From positions 2,852,001 to 2,916,000 of the forward strand of contig NZ_CP102277.1 in assembly GCF_025149785.1 (NCBI RefSeq): a stretch of DNA of 64,000 nucleotides, written 5' to 3'. Of this stretch, positions 57,000 through 64,000 are shown piece by piece. The stretch comes from Coprococcus comes ATCC 27758 (lineage in GTDB: Bacteria; Bacillota; Clostridia; Lachnospirales; Lachnospiraceae). Both the position numbers and the translations under genes were made by a program. How positions within the stretch are numbered: the stretch's first letter is position 1; each line of letters starts with the position of its first letter. Under the pieces are notes generated by a model. It was given only the letters and a program-made list of their open reading frames with translations. It was not told where the DNA came from and did not search any database.

Positions 57000-59792
57000 T
57001 CAGTCAATCTTAAGTTCCACTCTGCTTCCGCCTGCTTTTTCCTTTGTCACCACAATCTGTTTCTCAATCCTTGCTTTTAATTCCTGTACATGGGAAATGA
57101 TTCCCACCAGACGGTTGCCTTCCGTAAGACCATTCAGTGCTTTCATCGCCTGTTCCAGTGACTCTTCATCCAGTGAACCAAATCCTTCATCGACAAACAT
57201 AGTATCCAGCTGGATTCCGCCTGCCGATGCCTGGATCTCATCAGAAAGTCCGAGTGCCAGCGAAAGAGAAGCTTTAAAGGATTCCCCGCCGGAAAGCGTC
57301 TTCACACTTCGCTCAGAACCATTGTAGTGATCGATTACGTTCAGTTCCAGACCACTCTGACTCTTCCGGTCATCCGTATCAGTCTGGCGTTTCAGCTCAT
57401 ATTGTCCTCCACTCATCACCATAAACCGCGTATTTGCACGGGCAATGATCCGGTCAAAATAATTGGTCTGGATGTAGGTCTCAAACTTGATCTTTTCTTT
57501 GGATCCGCCTTTGATCTTTCCATTTACCGTATCGGAAATTTCACGCACCTGTGTCCAGTTCCGCTCAAGCTCAAGAAGTTTCGCACTCTGCTTGTCAATC
57601 GCATTCCTGATTTTCAGATTGTTCTCATAACGGATCCTGATCTCTTCCATCTGTTTTTGAAGCTCTTTTTTCGCACCTGATACTTCCTGTCGTGCCTGCC
57701 CAAGCTCTTCCATATCGGTTTCTTTATTACCTGCAATCTGCTTCTCCAGCGTTTTCTTCTTCGTCTTTGCCGCTTCTACCGACTGACTGCAGTCCTGGAA
57801 TGCCTTCTGGGCAACATTCAGATCCTTATCGATCTCTTTTTTCTGCTTATCCAGCTCTTTGATCTTCTGTTCTGCTTCTGCTTTCTCCGGAAATTCCAGT
57901 TTGCCACGCACCTTCACAGCCTGCTCTTCTGCATTTGCTTTATCTCTCTCAGACACAAGGAGCTGATCCCTTCGCTCCTGTTCTTCCTCCTGAAGCTTTT
58001 TCTGCATCTGCTCCAGTTCCGGGATCTCAGCTTCCAGCTTCTGCTTTTCTGCCACTGCTTCTTTAGCTACTTCCAGCTTTTTCTCTAATTCCTTTTCTGA
58101 CTTTTCGAGGGCATCCATCTGTTGACCGATCAACGCCAGCGATTTTTCAATCTCTTCTTCCTGTATGCTGCTGTCAAAGCTTTTCACACTCTTTTGGATT
58201 TCTTCTTCCAGCGCTTTTAACTGGACCAGCTTTTCATTTGCCTTAAAGCTTGCATCATTCGTCTTTTTCTCCACATCAGCAGTCTCTTTCCGGTATTTTT
58301 CAAGCTCTTCTTTTTCCGGTGCACCCTCCGTCATCTGTGCCGGACATGGATGGTGGACCGATCCGCACACCGGACACGGCTCTCCCGTTTTCAGAACCTT
58401 TGCAAGAATCCCCGCCTGCTCATCCAGAAATGCCCTCTCCATCCAGGCAAGCTGTGTCTTTCGCTCTGTACATTCCTCCTGCATGACAAGGTATGCTTTC
58501 TGCGCCTCTTCCACACTTTTCTTCTGTCTTTGGTATCTTTTATATTGAATAAGAATGTCTTCTGCCGTTTCTTTTCTTACTGAAACCTCTTTTTGTTCTG
58601 CTGTAACTTTCAGAACTTTAATTTCCGCATCCTTCAGCTCTTCCAGTAAATTCCTTTTCTGTTCCAGCTGCGTCTGCATCTGCGCTTTCTTTTCCTGATA
58701 CCGGCTTTCCCGGCCCTTTAATATCTCAATCTGTTTTTCAAGCTCTTTAATCTGCTTCTGAAGTTTTTTCAATTCGTCATACTCTGCAAGCTTTTCCTGC
58801 CTCTTTCCGATCTCTTCTGTTAGCTGTTCTCTTTCCGGCACTTTTCCCTGTTCTTTCTTCAGTGCCATTTCCAGTTCTTCCAGCGTTGGTGTCTTCTCTG
58901 CTATCGTCTGCTCCGCTTTTTCCAGTTCCTTTTTTGCACGGATCACTGCCTCTGCCTTTCCGATTCTCTGGTTCAGCTCTTCCAGATTTTTCTCGATCTT
59001 CGTTAAATTCTTCTTCTTTTCTTTCACCGAATCTGCATCCTGATTTGTCAGAGTTTCCAAAAGTTCCAGAACCTTGTCCGCATGAACCACCGCTTTGCTC
59101 TCACGGATCTTTTTCACATCCGCCGCAAGCACGTCATCCTCATCACAGCTGATATCCTTCATGTACTGCAAAATGCTTTTGCTGACATCCTCATACTGTT
59201 CCTGCAGTCTGCCGCTTGTATTTTTCATTTTCTCCTGAAATGCAAGATACGGTCTGGTATGAAAAATTTCCCGGAAAATTTTGCTCCGCTCCTCAGTTTT
59301 TGAAAACAGAAGCTTCATAAAATCTCCCTGCGCCAGCATTGCAATCTGAGTAAATTGTCCGCGGTCGAGCCCGATCAGTTCTGTCACTGCTTTCGTGACC
59401 TCTTTTGCCTTTGTGACCGGAAGCCTGTCATCCGGAAATTCCAGTACCGCATCCGCTCTTTGCAGCGTCATGCCCTCGCCCCTGTCCTTTGGACGCATGT
59501 ACTCCGGATTTCTCCGGATATGGTAGTTCTGCCCCTGATAGAAGAACTCCAATTCCACAAAAGTCGGCGTCTTCGGATCCGCATATTTACTCCGAAGCAT
59601 CCCCGGCTCTCTTTCATTTCCACTCGCTTCCCCGTAAAGTGCAAATGCGATTGCATCAAAAATTGTGGTCTTTCCGGCACCGGTATCGCCGGTTATCAGA
59701 TAAAGCCCCCGCTCACCAAGTTCATCCAGAATGATCTCTGTCTCTTTTGCATACGGTCCGAATGCAGAAATCGTAAGTTTTATCGGTCTCAT
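57000..59792 (-). CDS. sbcC: SbcC, ATPase subunit of the SbcCD nuclease
   Basis: A 930-residue SMC-like protein: Walker A LITGDTGAGKTTIFDAIAFA (GDTGAGKT 35-42), two long coiled-coil arms, a central zinc hook GEPCPVCGSVHHPCP, and the C-terminal signature KTLSGGESFKASLSLALGLS with Walker B DTMFVDEGFGSLDEESL. With SbcD it cuts hairpins and protein-blocked DNA ends. Its ATG overlaps the sbcD stop by four bases (ATGA). Length fits clostridial SbcC. Confidence 0.95.
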   Translation of the reverse strand: MRPIKLTISAFGPYAKETEIILDELGERGLYLITGDTGAGKTTIFDAIAFALYGEASGNEREPGMLRSKYADPKTPTFVELEFFYQGQNYHIRRNPEYMRPKDRGEGMTLQRADAVLEFPDDRLPVTKAKEVTKAVTELIGLDRGQFTQIAMLAQGDFMKLLFSKTEERSKIFREIFHTRPYLAFQEKMKNTSGRLQEQYEDVSKSILQYMKDISCDEDDVLAADVKKIRESKAVVHADKVLELLETLTNQDADSVKEKKKNLTKIEKNLEELNQRIGKAEAVIRAKKELEKAEQTIAEKTPTLEELEMALKKEQGKVPEREQLTEEIGKRQEKLAEYDELKKLQKQIKELEKQIEILKGRESRYQEKKAQMQTQLEQKRNLLEELKDAEIKVLKVTAEQKEVSVRKETAEDILIQYKRYQRQKKSVEEAQKAYLVMQEECTERKTQLAWMERAFLDEQAGILAKVLKTGEPCPVCGSVHHPCPAQMTEGAPEKEELEKYRKETADVEKKTNDASFKANEKLVQLKALEEEIQKSVKSFDSSIQEEEIEKSLALIGQQMDALEKSEKELEKKLEVAKEAVAEKQKLEAEIPELEQMQKKLQEEEQERRDQLLVSERDKANAEEQAVKVRGKLEFPEKAEAEQKIKELDKQKKEIDKDLNVAQKAFQDCSQSVEAAKTKKKTLEKQIAGNKETDMEELGQARQEVSGAKKELQKQMEEIRIRYENNLKIRNAIDKQSAKLLELERNWTQVREISDTVNGKIKGGSKEKIKFETYIQTNYFDRIIARANTRFMVMSGGQYELKRQTDTDDRKSQSGLELNVIDHYNGSERSVKTLSGGESFKASLSLALGLSDEIQASAGGIQLDTMFVDEGFGSLDEESLEQAMKALNGLTEGNRLVGIISHVQELKARIEKQIVVTKEKAGGSRVELKID

Positions 59793-60925
59793 CTCTCATC
59801 CTCCCATATTTCTTCCATCATTCCTCTGGCAATCTCTTCCTGTTCATCCGTCATGGGCTGGTTGTTCTGAAGCTCATAGAACTCTCTTAAAAGCTCCATC
59901 GGGGATTTCTCCTCTACTTCCGCCGTTCCTCTCACTGTCCCTGCCGCTCTCGTCCGCAGATTGTCATAAGACAGCTTCATGATATTCGGATAAATGCATC
60001 GTAGCTTCCCGATCGCATCCGGGATATCCTCTTCATCAGTCAGCGTAATGTGAAAATAATCGTCCGTGTTCATATCCTTGTAAAAATCCAGCGCAGTCAC
60101 TTCCATATACGTGCCTCTGACTTCCCGCATATCATGTTTCGGCAAAAATGGAATCTGCTGAATATTTATTTTGCCTTTTTCTTCTACATCAACGATGACT
60201 GCTGCTTTTTTGTGATTGGTTTCAGAAAAAGAATATTTGAGCGGCGTCCCCGAATACCGCACTGTCTCTTTCCCGATCTTCTGCGGGCCATGGAGATGTC
60301 CAAGCGCCACATAATCAAATCCGTCAAAGACAGATGCGTCCACATCATCCACACCGCCTACAGACAGTTCTTCTGAATCACATCTTGCCGCACCGGTCAC
60401 GAACTGATGCGCAAGCAGGATATTTCGTTTGTCTGTGTCGATCTCCATATGCTGCACTGCCGCATTTACAGCATCCTGATAGGTGATGATTTCTTCCTCC
60501 GGATACACTCTTTTTACCAAAGACGGCTTCACAAATGGAAGCATGTAAATATTGATCTCACCGTACCGGTCACTTATCGTTACCGGTTCTACATCCGACT
60601 CAAATACCGGTGAAAGATAGATCTGTCTGCTGCTCATCAATCTTGAACCGAAAGCAATTCTTTCTGCAGAATCATGGTTTCCACTGATCAGAAACACCGG
60701 AAGCTCCCTCGCGGCGATCCTTGTCAGGAAATCATCCAGAAGCCTCACCGCCTCTGCGGACGGAATCACCTTGTCGTAAATGTCGCCCGCGATCAGAACC
60801 GCTTCCACCTTCTGCTCATCGATAATGTTCAGTATCTCTTTTAAAATATATGCCTGATCCTCCAGCATGGAAAATTCATTCACACGCTTGCCGAGGTGCA
60901 GGTCTGATAAATGAAGAAATCGCAT
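59789..60925 (-). CDS. sbcD: SbcD, nuclease subunit of SbcCD
   Basis: A 378-residue metallophosphoesterase: MRFLHLSDLHLGKRVNEFSM, VEAVLIAGDIYDKVIPSAEA, LPVFLISGNHDSAERI, and FDYVALGHLHGPQKI, the full set of metal-binding motifs, followed by a capping domain and a SbcC-binding tail. Mn-dependent 3'-5' exonuclease and endonuclease. ATG follows GGAGGAAGAAAACC. Forms an operon with sbcC. Confidence 0.95.
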   Translation of the reverse strand: MRFLHLSDLHLGKRVNEFSMLEDQAYILKEILNIIDEQKVEAVLIAGDIYDKVIPSAEAVRLLDDFLTRIAARELPVFLISGNHDSAERIAFGSRLMSSRQIYLSPVFESDVEPVTISDRYGEINIYMLPFVKPSLVKRVYPEEEIITYQDAVNAAVQHMEIDTDKRNILLAHQFVTGAARCDSEELSVGGVDDVDASVFDGFDYVALGHLHGPQKIGKETVRYSGTPLKYSFSETNHKKAAVIVDVEEKGKINIQQIPFLPKHDMREVRGTYMEVTALDFYKDMNTDDYFHITLTDEEDIPDAIGKLRCIYPNIMKLSYDNLRTRAAGTVRGTAEVEEKSPMELLREFYELQNNQPMTDEQEEIARGMMEEIWEDER

Positions 60926-61380: not shown

Positions 61381-61414
61381 GATGTAAAAAAACTCAATCG
61401 AGTTTTTTTACATC
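61381..61414. terminator. Bidirectional terminator
   Basis: Perfect 15-bp arms GATGTAAAAAAACTC (61381-61395) and its complement (61400-61414), loop AATC. A/T runs are inside the stem. It follows the Fic remnant. Confidence 0.7.
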
Positions 61415-62068
61415 CCCTTAAATTTATATTTTCCTTTTCCGTGACCGGATACCGGCTCAATAATCTCTGCCTGCGTCAAATTGGCAAGAAGTTTTGAAGC
61501 ACCTGAACTTTTCAGTTCAAGAAGTTCCATAACTGCACTTCTTCCAAATACCTCATCAAAACCAAACTTTTCAAAGAGTCTATGATTATGAACTGTCGTT
61601 TTTACTGAGAAATCACTACTTTTTTCGGAAAGTACACTTTCAATATCCACTTTTTCGTCTTGAATGTCCACTTTTGCATCCCCAAAATCTTTCTCCTGTG
61701 AAAAATCGTATTCAAGTGTAGCTCTCAGTTCTGATGCACTACCATACATAACGGTTGCTCCATCAAGCACCCATTCTTTGTGATGTTGTAATCTCGAATC
61801 TTTCCGGCGTGTTTATAAATTCCCTGAAAGAGTTTGCGATGGATAGCAATATACTCGTTCGGGGAAAATGAAAACGCTGTTTCAGAAAGAATTTCAGCAA
61901 TACGGGAATTTTGCCTTCAATATTCTGAATGGCCGTATCAATCAGATATTTAGATGGTTTGAGTCCGTCCACCGCCTGAAGACCGATTGCCGTACTCCAA
62001 GCATACCCCTTATGAGCTTTATCTGGTTCAGACTCCCTCAAATATTCCTTAAACGGGTCTTTTTCCAT
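61408..62068 (-). pseudogene. VbhA antitoxin / Fic toxin remnant
   Basis: Starts MEKDPFKEYLRESEPDKAHK then GYAWSTAIGLQAVDGLKPSK and YLIDTAIQNIEGK, the VbhA-type antitoxin block. In another frame follow RIAEILSETAFSFSPNEYIA and IHRKLFQGIYKHAGKIRDYN (Fic), then after a shift EWVLDGATVMYGSASELRAT and LEYDFSQEKDF, and finally the C-terminal winged helix (FGRSAVMELLELKSSGASKL). The HxFx(D/E)GNGR catalytic core is missing between SQEKDF and GDAKVDIQ. So the AMPylating toxin is dead. Confidence 0.75.
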
Positions 62069-62141
62069 ATCCACTACCCCGCTTCATAGTCTTATAATTC
62101 ACTCTTTTGCTTTCTATTTTTATTTTTTTATAAGAGATCCT

Positions 62142-62927
62142 TTATTTTTTATCCGGTTCTTCTTCTCTGAGTTCTTTCATCTTTCTGAAATACGAACTCA
62201 TCTCATCTGCCATTCCCGAAAGCCTGTTCAGCAGTCCGGAAAACTCCGTCAGCATCTCATCATCCTTGTAATACGGATACACAATATCATGGTCAATCTC
62301 GCTCCATCCTTCTTCAAAAAGCGTTCTGCCCTGAATTTCCAGATAGTATCCGTGATACTTGATAATATAATGCAGTGAACGGTAATACCCGCCTGTCCGC
62401 ACTTCAATCTGCGTACTGTCATAAATCCTTGTATCCCCGGAACGCTTGTATACTTTTGGACGTTCTGCGATATAGCAGTGCTCCGGATCCTCATCAAAAT
62501 CCCGCAGCCTGTCCTCTATATAATTGTTCGGATCATTTTCAAACATCGAAGTGATGAACTTATGAAAATGGATCCAGTCCTCCCGGTAAAGGAAGAAAAC
62601 CCTGATACCAATCAAATCTGTGATGTATTTGTGGTAATTCGATTTGTTGATATGTTCAAATTTTGCATAATTTTCTTTCCGCTTCCGAATGATCTTTTCC
62701 AGAAGGTGCATTGGATTCTTGGTTCTGTAACGGTATGAATGGATCCCTGCCCGCTCAATATCATAAATATATTCATCTACAAATTCTTTTCCCAGATGAC
62801 GGAACAATTTCGTTTTTGACATATAATCTTCATAGATCTCTGTCAGCTCCTCCCAGGAAATCCGGGCAGCCGTAAGGTCATCCTCTGTCAGATTACAGGT
62901 TTTCAGAAATTCCTCTTTATTGATCAT
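62142..62927 (-). CDS. RelA/SpoT-domain alarmone synthetase-like protein
   Basis: A 261-residue protein MINKEEFLKTCNLTEDDLTA with a RelA_SpoT nucleotidyltransferase domain: YRYRTKNPMHLLEKIIRKRK, YITDLIGIRVFFLYREDWIH, STQIEVRTGGYYRSLHYIIK and EIQGRTLFEEGWSEIDHDIV. The last motif is normally E(V/I)QxRT...AWAExxH; Trp/Ser variation is seen but Glu, Gln, Arg and the final Glu/His remain. No HD hydrolase or TGS/ACT domain, so it is like a small alarmone synthetase. The ATG overlaps the upstream stop by 11 bases, which ties its synthesis to the translation-factor/nuclease gene. Confidence 0.85.
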   Translation of the reverse strand: MINKEEFLKTCNLTEDDLTAARISWEELTEIYEDYMSKTKLFRHLGKEFVDEYIYDIERAGIHSYRYRTKNPMHLLEKIIRKRKENYAKFEHINKSNYHKYITDLIGIRVFFLYREDWIHFHKFITSMFENDPNNYIEDRLRDFDEDPEHCYIAERPKVYKRSGDTRIYDSTQIEVRTGGYYRSLHYIIKYHGYYLEIQGRTLFEEGWSEIDHDIVYPYYKDDEMLTEFSGLLNRLSGMADEMSSYFRKMKELREEEPDKK

Positions 62928-64000
62928 TTGCTCTCTCACCCAATTCTTTCCGGCCCATGCGGACCTCTTCCATATGACCGGCAAGCTCTCTGTCCATATG
63001 ATCGAACAGATAATTTTTCGCACTCTCTTTGTGAAGCTCCCATTCTTCCTGAATCTGCCGGTTCACGATCTTCACCTCTTCCAGGAACTCCCGGGAAGAT
63101 ATGATCGTACCTCCCTGTCCCTGTGTGATCACCTGTTCCACACCATCTGATGTAACTACCGTCACATGATACTTTCTTCCGACTTCATGTACTACCTTTT
63201 CAATGTACATATCCGCCGTCTCAGCTTCTTTTGTATACACAACATGAATGTTATGGTATTTGAAGATTTCCATTGCTTCGCCTTCAACCTTGTAGGCATC
63301 AAATACCAGGATCAGAGGATAGTTCTTGAACCCCTGATAATTGCAAAGCACATCCATCAGTTTATTTCTTGCTGCTTCAATATTCTCTTTTGCCAGTTCT
63401 TTCAGATCCTCCCATGCGAAAATAACATTATAACCATCTACCAGCAAATATTCCTGTACGCCTTCTTCATCTTTCTTTGCTTTTGGCGTTTTCCCTGCAG
63501 TCACAGTCTTTGGAAGACGATCGGCTTTTCTCTCTACCCGTCCGTAAGTCCGGATAAAAATCTCTTCCAGTTCCCTGTCTTCTCTGGCATTACGTGCATA
63601 ATGCCTGCCGCCTCTGGCTGCTGCTTCTGCTGATCCGCTTTTCTCCTTGCGTAAATTTACCGGTACAGTCTCATCCAGACTTTTTTCTGTCTCTCCTGCC
63701 AGCCTTTTCCGCTCTTCCAGGATTTTCGGAAGCTGTGCCTCAATATGCATATGTTCCGGCACTTCCTGCCACGGTACATTATATCCTGCTCCATGAGCAC
63801 AGAATACAGAGCCCGTCGGATTCTCCACATCCCGTTCCGGATCGTAACCAATCGCCTCTACAACCTCGTCCTGGTTATGGCATGGAAAATATCCCTTCAG
63901 CGTACAGAACAGTTTCCCTCTTCCTCTGCTGTATGTGGTTACTTCTCTCTGATAATCCTGCATTTCAGACACCGGTGCACTTCCGGTGACCACAGCCATA
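62917..64000 (-). CDS. TetM/EF-G-like translation factor C-terminus fused to NYN (YacP/Rae1-like) nuclease domain; runs off right edge
   Basis: The visible 360 residues begin inside domain IV/V of a ribosomal-protection-type GTPase (SAPVSEMQDYQREVTTYSRG, RGKLFCTLKGYFPCHNQDEV, VFCAHGAGYNVPWQEVPEHM). After a charged linker (about 95-180) comes an NYN nuclease domain: EYLLVDGYNVIFAWEDLKEL, YPLILVFDAYKVEG, TADMYIEKVVHEVGRKYHVT, VVTSDGVEQVITQGQGG, with the conserved Asp residues of the PIN/NYN fold, like YacP/Rae1. The GTPase part lies beyond base 64000. Rae1 cuts mRNA in the ribosomal A site, and TetM proteins bind the same site, so the fusion would place the nuclease there. Tetracycline protection is not implied. 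Confidence 0.82.
   Translation of the reverse strand, partial: MAVVTGSAPVSEMQDYQREVTTYSRGRGKLFCTLKGYFPCHNQDEVVEAIGYDPERDVENPTGSVFCAHGAGYNVPWQEVPEHMHIEAQLPKILEERKRLAGETEKSLDETVPVNLRKEKSGSAEAAARGGRHYARNAREDRELEEIFIRTYGRVERKADRLPKTVTAGKTPKAKKDEEGVQEYLLVDGYNVIFAWEDLKELAKENIEAARNKLMDVLCNYQGFKNYPLILVFDAYKVEGEAMEIFKYHNIHVVYTKEAETADMYIEKVVHEVGRKYHVTVVTSDGVEQVITQGQGGTIISSREFLEEVKIVNRQIQEEWELHKESAKNYLFDHMDRELAGHMEEVRMGRKELGERANDQ

Follow-up and report, generated by a model that had tools for sequence, protein, structure and literature searches.

A translational GTPase with a C-terminal Rae1-type nuclease domain in Coprococcus comes, next to a sporadically occurring alarmone synthetase-like gene

Translational GTPases of the EF-G kind place domain IV in the ribosomal A site. 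In Bacillus subtilis the gene yacP lies between rlmB and sigH, and its product, Rae1, is reportedly the subject of studies by Leroy (2017), Condon (2018), Gilet (2025) and Deves (2023). The available portions of PMC10100781, PMC6613710 and PMC12320835 describe Rae1 as an A-site endoribonuclease, proposed to enter or act on stalled ribosomes, and the available portion of PMC6613710 describes it as a free-standing protein whose gene is co-transcribed with yacO. According to the available text of PMC4342817 (Atkinson 2015), tetracycline is dislodged by the domain IV loops of Tet proteins. The same text describes ten Clostridiales species whose Tet proteins carry a YacP-like NYN domain, and raises the possibility of RNase-based resistance. 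By description, those proteins have the same architecture as the fusion protein analyzed here, and the fusion as such is already known from that source, which is the only report of it among the literature matches listed for the fusion or for Rae1; none of those listed links the fusion to loss of yacP or to an alarmone synthetase. Relative to the available text of PMC4342817, what is new here is the disappearance of yacP from its operon, how often the fused and free forms occur, their unfused counterparts, the absent Tet loop and failed Tet tests, the accidental nature of a neighboring synthetase gene, and a promoter and leader in front of some of the fusions.

The window is a 64,000-nucleotide stretch (C1:2852001-2916000) of the Coprococcus comes genome, a single contig of 3.37 Mb. 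A single minus-strand frame crosses its edge, with the end of domain V, a linker and the NYN domain inside the window (Table 1). Completed from the host genome, the frame encodes 927 amino acids at window-equivalent 62917-65700 (L002:2917-5700), from an ATG at 65700 to a TAA at 62919-62917. We find Pfam matches to GTP_EFTU (residues 11-231), EF-G_D2 (246-319; 25 bits, slightly below the cut-off of 27), EFG_III, EFG_IV, EFG_C (528-610) and NYN_YacP (752-914). A preliminary description of the window had joined a TetM/EF-G-like C-terminal domain to an NYN/YacP domain in one frame, which the Pfam matches and the 927-residue frame confirm, and had made its reading depend on a GTPase domain upstream, which is present and complete, with its G1-G5 motifs, once the sequence is extended beyond 64000; the feature it marked is real, but its end at 64000 is the window edge and the gene continues to 65700. 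An AlphaFold model of the 99% identical L051 copy, built with 45 sequences (mean pLDDT 82.5, pTM 0.64), has EF-G as its best Foldseek matches and a confident NYN domain, with pLDDT below 50 in linker residues 675-705 and 718-746.

Table 1. Features of the fusion locus, in window coordinates
Feature	Position	Strand	Basis
C-terminal 360 residues of the Tet/EF-G-like GTPase-NYN fusion	62917..64000	-	Pfam, host-genome frame
Part of EFG_C (domain V; Pfam residues 528-610) inside the window	63871..64000	-	Pfam
Predicted flexible linker, residues 675-746	63463..63678	-	AlphaFold model of the L051 copy
NYN_YacP (Rae1-type) nuclease domain	62959..63447	-	177 bits (cut-off 24.6)
11-base overlap of fusion stop and synthetase start	62917..62927	-	Sequence
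RelA/SpoT-fold nucleotidyltransferase, divergent small alarmone synthetase type; neighbor, not counted as part of the system	62142..62927	-	PF04607, model, alignments

The G1 (AHVDAGKTT), G2 (RGIT), G3 (DTPGHVDF), G4 (NKMD) and G5 (GSAL) motifs vary little or not at all among 80 named relatives, the least uniform positions being the G5 serine (67 serines, 12 alanines and one gap) and the G3 valine (71/80). GTP_EFTU with these motifs, followed by EF-G domains II-V, places the protein in the EF2/EF-G superfamily; it resembles EF-G in fold and domains, with one domain IV tip histidine in alignment, but scores 322 bits against the EF-G cut-off of 659 and carries the NYN domain. The available text of PMC4342817 suggests that such a protein protects the ribosome from tetracycline, or another ribosome-directed drug, with an RNase appended, and tet_protect is indeed the top NCBIfam model. 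The score, 445.9 bits, is nevertheless far below the cut-off of 775, which annotated Tet(M), taken as a control, exceeds with 868 bits, and unfused sisters of the GTPase half reach 412 (L151) and 378 bits (Ligilactobacillus salivarius). Domain order is shared with Tet(M), Tet(O) and Tet(W), at 29-30% identity, whereas the C-terminus and the domain IV tip differ: in an alignment with these three Tet sequences the tip reads GRAHLKHTEGGDF in the fusion and GLYYSPVSTPADF in its Tet counterparts, the aligned segments being GRAHLKHTEGGDFRQ and GLYYSPVSTPADFR, respectively. The YSPVS loop common to the three Tet sequences compared is absent from the fusion, which has HLKHTEGG there, and a HT.GGDFR motif is common to the fusion and the unfused sisters (44-45% identity; 50% in Ligilactobacillus salivarius). 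A TetM-like protein of Bacillus toyonensis confers tetracycline resistance in B. subtilis, according to the available text of PMC5209696, and by analogy the fusion might do so too; full-length fusion homologues are also found in two large plasmid-collection records, from Monoglobus and Agathobacter, whereas the gene itself is on the main replicon in the window's genome and in most sampled family genomes. Drug protection is on this evidence an unlikely role, and by sequence the GTPase is a member of a Tet-like clade and no Tet(M/O/W) protein.

The only PDB sequence relatives of the NYN domain are structures of B. subtilis YacP (Rae1), 5mq9 (E 6.6e-24) and 5mq8 (E 8.3e-24), and the acids of DGYN, VFDA, KEAETAD and TSD are conserved at the same positions in both proteins. 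The aspartates expected of an NYN active site, D755, D801, D830 and D852, are invariant among 45 aligned fusions. These acids, together with a match well above the NYN_YacP cut-off, identify the domain as Rae1/YacP, and PF05991 occurs only once in the window's genome, making this its sole NYN_YacP; in contrast to the free-standing B. subtilis enzyme, it is tethered to a translational GTPase. An older proposal for NYN domains, cited in the available text of PMC4342817, would have this domain mature stable RNA (rRNA or tRNA), with the GTPase as a ribosome-assembly factor; the closest characterized relative, Rae1, is described as an A-site mRNA endonuclease, and we regard such a role as highly improbable.

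The reading that we favor, by a modest degree, is that of a translational GTPase with a C-terminally tethered A-site endonuclease that it would bring to stalled ribosomes. The GTPase half would recognize ribosomes with a vacant or blocked A site, with domain IV probing the decoding site; following GTP hydrolysis or release, the NYN domain on its tether would move into the same A site and cut the mRNA, and the ribosome could then be rescued. Because domain IV and the Rae1 domain would compete for the A site, the two actions should be sequential, and the long, flexible linker predicted by the model fits such a hand-over. In support of this reading are the architecture, the intact motifs of both halves, the single NYN_YacP domain, an operon from which yacP is missing, the frequency of the fusion in the family, and the existence of unfused counterparts.

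In the window's genome an RNase III-domain gene (mrnC), rlmB (SpoU) and a sigma-70 factor gene stand in a row without yacP, and only 12 bases separate rlmB from the sigma gene. Elsewhere, 15 of 23 stand-alone loci have rlmB in the 1.5-kb flank of yacP. It is absent from the flanks of all seven fused loci of that set, and it flanks just one (L079) of the 80 named fusion loci. Since the fusion is present in 132/150 family genomes, is the sole NYN_YacP protein here, and accompanies a rlmB-sigma row that lacks yacP, it has probably replaced free Rae1 in Coprococcus comes, and across Lachnospiraceae it seems to be a replacement of the free-standing enzyme.

In the family sample, NYN_YacP is found in 137 of 150 genomes; the open frame around it is at least 500 residues long in 132 of these and 175-184 residues in three, the remaining two being ambiguous (G500, at a contig edge, and G576). 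The order sample has an NYN match in 226/245 genomes and a close GTPase in at least 129/245, which by subtraction divide into 100 fused, 27 unfused (39-52% identity) and two at 34-35% identity (129 - 27 - 2 = 100). These GTPase counts are lower bounds, with five candidates scored per genome; four of the 100 fused genes are broken by contig ends or frame breaks (G076, G094, G108, G214), three of the 27 unfused GTPases are partial (G020, G158, G211), and G216 has a fused-size NYN frame yet no GTPase row in the five-candidate scoring. A stand-alone-sized NYN is also present in all 27 genomes with an unfused GTPase. Among the 19 order genomes lacking an NYN match, only G076 has the GTPase, in a fusion truncated by the contig end. 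Taking 127 genomes as stand-alone (226 - 99), the unfused GTPase occurs in 27/127 stand-alone-YacP genomes and in 0/18 NYN-less ones (Fisher p 0.025, phylogeny ignored); in 43 hand-picked genomes, which overlap the other samples, a GTPase at 39% identity or more accompanies stand-alone YacP in 17 of 30 and is absent from all 13 without NYN. The phylum sample has NYN in 109/199 genomes and the GTPase in 16/199. It is fused in the 13 with at least 55% identity and unfused in two at 45%, whose genomes also have a stand-alone-sized NYN; the last has 33% identity. In this sample the fusion also occurs in other families of the phylum.

A less likely but well alive explanation is that two independent ribosome-associated activities were fused for co-expression, the NYN domain being an ordinary Rae1 that does not depend on the GTPase and the GTPase doing some other job, such as a translocation-like or rescue step. 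The order counts speak against our preferred reading: at least 27/127 stand-alone-YacP genomes have a close GTPase, but in about 100/127 none is seen among the five candidates per genome, and therefore Rae1 need not have a GTPase partner. Unlinked, separate copies of both genes in other genomes and a long linker predicted to be disordered are likewise compatible with co-expression. What such an explanation accounts for less well is that 132 of the 137 family genomes with NYN retain the fusion, that it occurs in further families of the phylum, and that yacP is gone from the operon in the window's genome.

Exceptions to the common arrangement also count against our preferred reading. Within the fusion-dominated family itself, three genomes (L014, L015 and L017, from G157, G082 and G204) have NYN and GTPase as unlinked genes, with the free NYN not adjacent to rlmB, which may reflect a secondary split or an older state retained. 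Three genomes of one genus (G044, G108, G126) have the fusion and a second NYN match, of 177 residues in G108. On a tree of 110 NYN sequences, one change between fused and free suffices (78/16; 80% of bootstraps), so that a single origin of the fusion is weakly supported.

The gene whose start overlaps the fusion stop, as the preliminary description correctly noted, begins with an ATG and scores 47.6 bits against the PF04607 cut-off of 27. Its AlphaFold model (pLDDT 87) has RelP (6ewz and 6fgj) as top Foldseek matches, followed by RelQ and other small alarmone synthetases, and R68, K70, K78, R81, D104, R109, Y182, E197 and Q199 are invariant in alignments of 7 and of 21 sequences. A PF04607 score above cut-off and the ATP/Mg-binding residues place the product in the RelA/SpoT fold, and we infer that it would act as an alarmone synthetase. 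Its fold is that of the small synthetases RelP and RelQ, whereas it scores 19 bits against the YjbM cut-off of 320 and lacks the KDYI..PK segment present in the genome's four other small synthetases. The pyrophosphate-donor residues have the spacing given for the toxSAS FaRel2 in the available text of PMC11782079, but the fold match to FaRel2 is weak (rank 48, E 1.6e-3). PF04607 has seven matches in the window's genome: one long Rel, the four small synthetases, the window gene and a partly matched 338-residue frame.

A look-up for toxSAS-type antitoxins finds a related gene 3' of the synthetase homologue in three of 32 loci (L036:2250-3056, L037:2637-3164 and L038:1508-2011). This family follows divergent synthetase homologues, and two of its members, compared with Pfam, gave no match; it is a possible partner or antitoxin; no counterpart was found in L002, in L051 or in 19 viral loci.

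The preliminary description had combined GTPase, nuclease and synthetase into a single surveillance module, with the synthetase signaling from the same stalled ribosomes. An A-site-type GTPase and nuclease are indeed found in one chain, so that this part stands as anatomy; the alarmone arm does not, since the gene pair, expected to be conserved in relatives, is not. The pair occurs in 2/8 same-genus genomes, the window's own and the near-identical Coprococcus comes L051, and a RelA/SpoT-type gene is found near one of the 80 named fusion loci (75 of which have at least 1 kb of downstream sequence), again that of the near-identical Coprococcus comes. Synthetase relatives are present in 11/245 order genomes, several of them weak or partial, and adjoin the fusion only in the window's own; they are found in 6/61 relatives, and also in 19 viral contigs, one phage record and nine plasmid-collection records (a single-protein scan of the viral contigs gave none, the 19 coming from another search). 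In the other six genus genomes the fusion is followed by GNAT-like genes (twice), a xanthine-dehydrogenase-like gene, an opposite-strand hemerythrin-like gene, sbcD-sbcC, or a rsmH-like gene, names that, sbcD excepted, come from reading the sequences. A same-strand overlap of 11 bases and intact residues for pyrophosphate donation speak for a three-activity module, but these counts, together with six other PF04607 matches in the same genome, rule out the synthetase as a component of a conserved module; as a general module the idea is mostly refuted, and we give it very little credence. The synthetase looks like a recent, sporadic neighbor unrelated to the fusion. The overlap suggests translational coupling in the Coprococcus comes lineage, and the tethered-endonuclease reading treats it as accidental.

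Beyond the synthetase the window has a sbcC-sbcD pair on the same strand (57000-60925), and in G248, of the same genus, sbcD follows the fusion directly with a 4-base overlap. This arrangement suggests, without proof, that the synthetase and fragments at 61408-62074 came in between the fusion and sbcD. The two short minus-strand frames at 61408-62074 match nothing in Pfam or NCBIfam. They look like the beginning of clostridial Fic-type genes and are perhaps a decayed gene between synthetase and sbcD.

No conserved genomic partner of the fusion emerges from clustering of neighbors at 80 loci, which are scattered, the largest group being an ABC transporter, by reading of the sequence, at 16/80 loci. 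A defense role finds no more than a weak ThsB match in PADLOC (residues 744-826, E 0.0066). A mobile origin of the fusion is likewise set aside: a search of viral contigs reaching close relatives only finds no relative of it, and the matches are limited to the two plasmid-collection records and two records named 'Bacteriophage sp.', which match over 80% of the query. One of these two phage records, L158 (MT835563.1), has a homologue of 54% identity over 94% of the query; the record is UNVERIFIED and unannotated and possibly a host contig. No tRNA is found in 12 kb around the fusion locus, and no Rfam match reaches the gathering score.

Upstream of the fusion gene, outside the window, we find a promoter-like TCGAC-N-TATGAT element at window-equivalent 65708-65771 (L002:5708-5771, minus strand), the wider form of which, TCGAC-N-TATRHT, precedes a subset of the fusions. 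The spacer arm GCCCCTTTCTG is complementary to the Shine-Dalgarno region CAGAAAGGGGC, and the promoter/Shine-Dalgarno stretch folds with -43.5 kcal/mol (z -8.6). The TCGAC form is found upstream of 13/80 named fusions, once elsewhere in 1.8 million strand-bases of those loci, and nowhere in the 64-kb window; the ordinary TTGAC form is found upstream of 6/80, with 32 occurrences elsewhere in those loci. Presence within the genus is patchy (L002, L164, L165, L166 and L169, but neither L167 nor the 118 upstream bases of L168), and the element is missing both from another 12 fused loci in the phylum sample (L139-L150) and from 12 unfused genes (L151, L152, L170-L179), so that it marks a subset of fusions.

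Stems of at least seven pairs covering the Shine-Dalgarno region precede 12/80 fusions and 9/298 other genes (p 0.0002); the rules for assigning start codons differed slightly between fusions and controls. Fifteen sequences were selected for their TCGAC element (L055, L061 and L169 also have it but were left out). Of their cells 91.1% pair, the figures for shuffled and slid sequences being a mean of 85.8% (0/500 as high) and 51-65%, respectively; both sides change in 7/13 stem pairs, 11 of 14 double-changed cells coming, by reading, from three similar sequences (L054, L056, L164), and the covariation score is 0.368 vs 0.259. Further pair types, one of five stem measures, are in no excess over shuffles (127/500). 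Since the -10 box sits in the stem loop, RNA started at the TCGAC promoter would lack the 5' arm. Silencing of read-through transcripts is one possible role of the stem; alternatively, the true start may lie further up. A short-loop terminator scan upstream of the fusion finds none, and a hairpin with a T-run lies upstream in 11/80 fusion loci.

These findings carry a caution, that annotation alone should not make these common gut genes tetracycline resistance genes. The available portions of PMC10100781, PMC6613710 and PMC12320835 do not settle how Rae1 enters the A site, and the fusion points to a possible GTPase partner; with a natural fusion apparently replacing free Rae1, and an unfused GTPase in some genomes that have free YacP, the question becomes testable by separating the halves. 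A bolder proposal, which we put forward tentatively from sequence comparisons, is a single-chain, no-go type of mRNA surveillance in Lachnospiraceae, in which the GTPase would sense a blocked A site and hand over to the tethered endonuclease on GTP hydrolysis. If true, the fusion would do in bacteria, within one chain, what GTPase-delivered surveillance factors do in eukaryotes, and an unfused GTPase with free Rae1 would be its two-gene version in other genomes.
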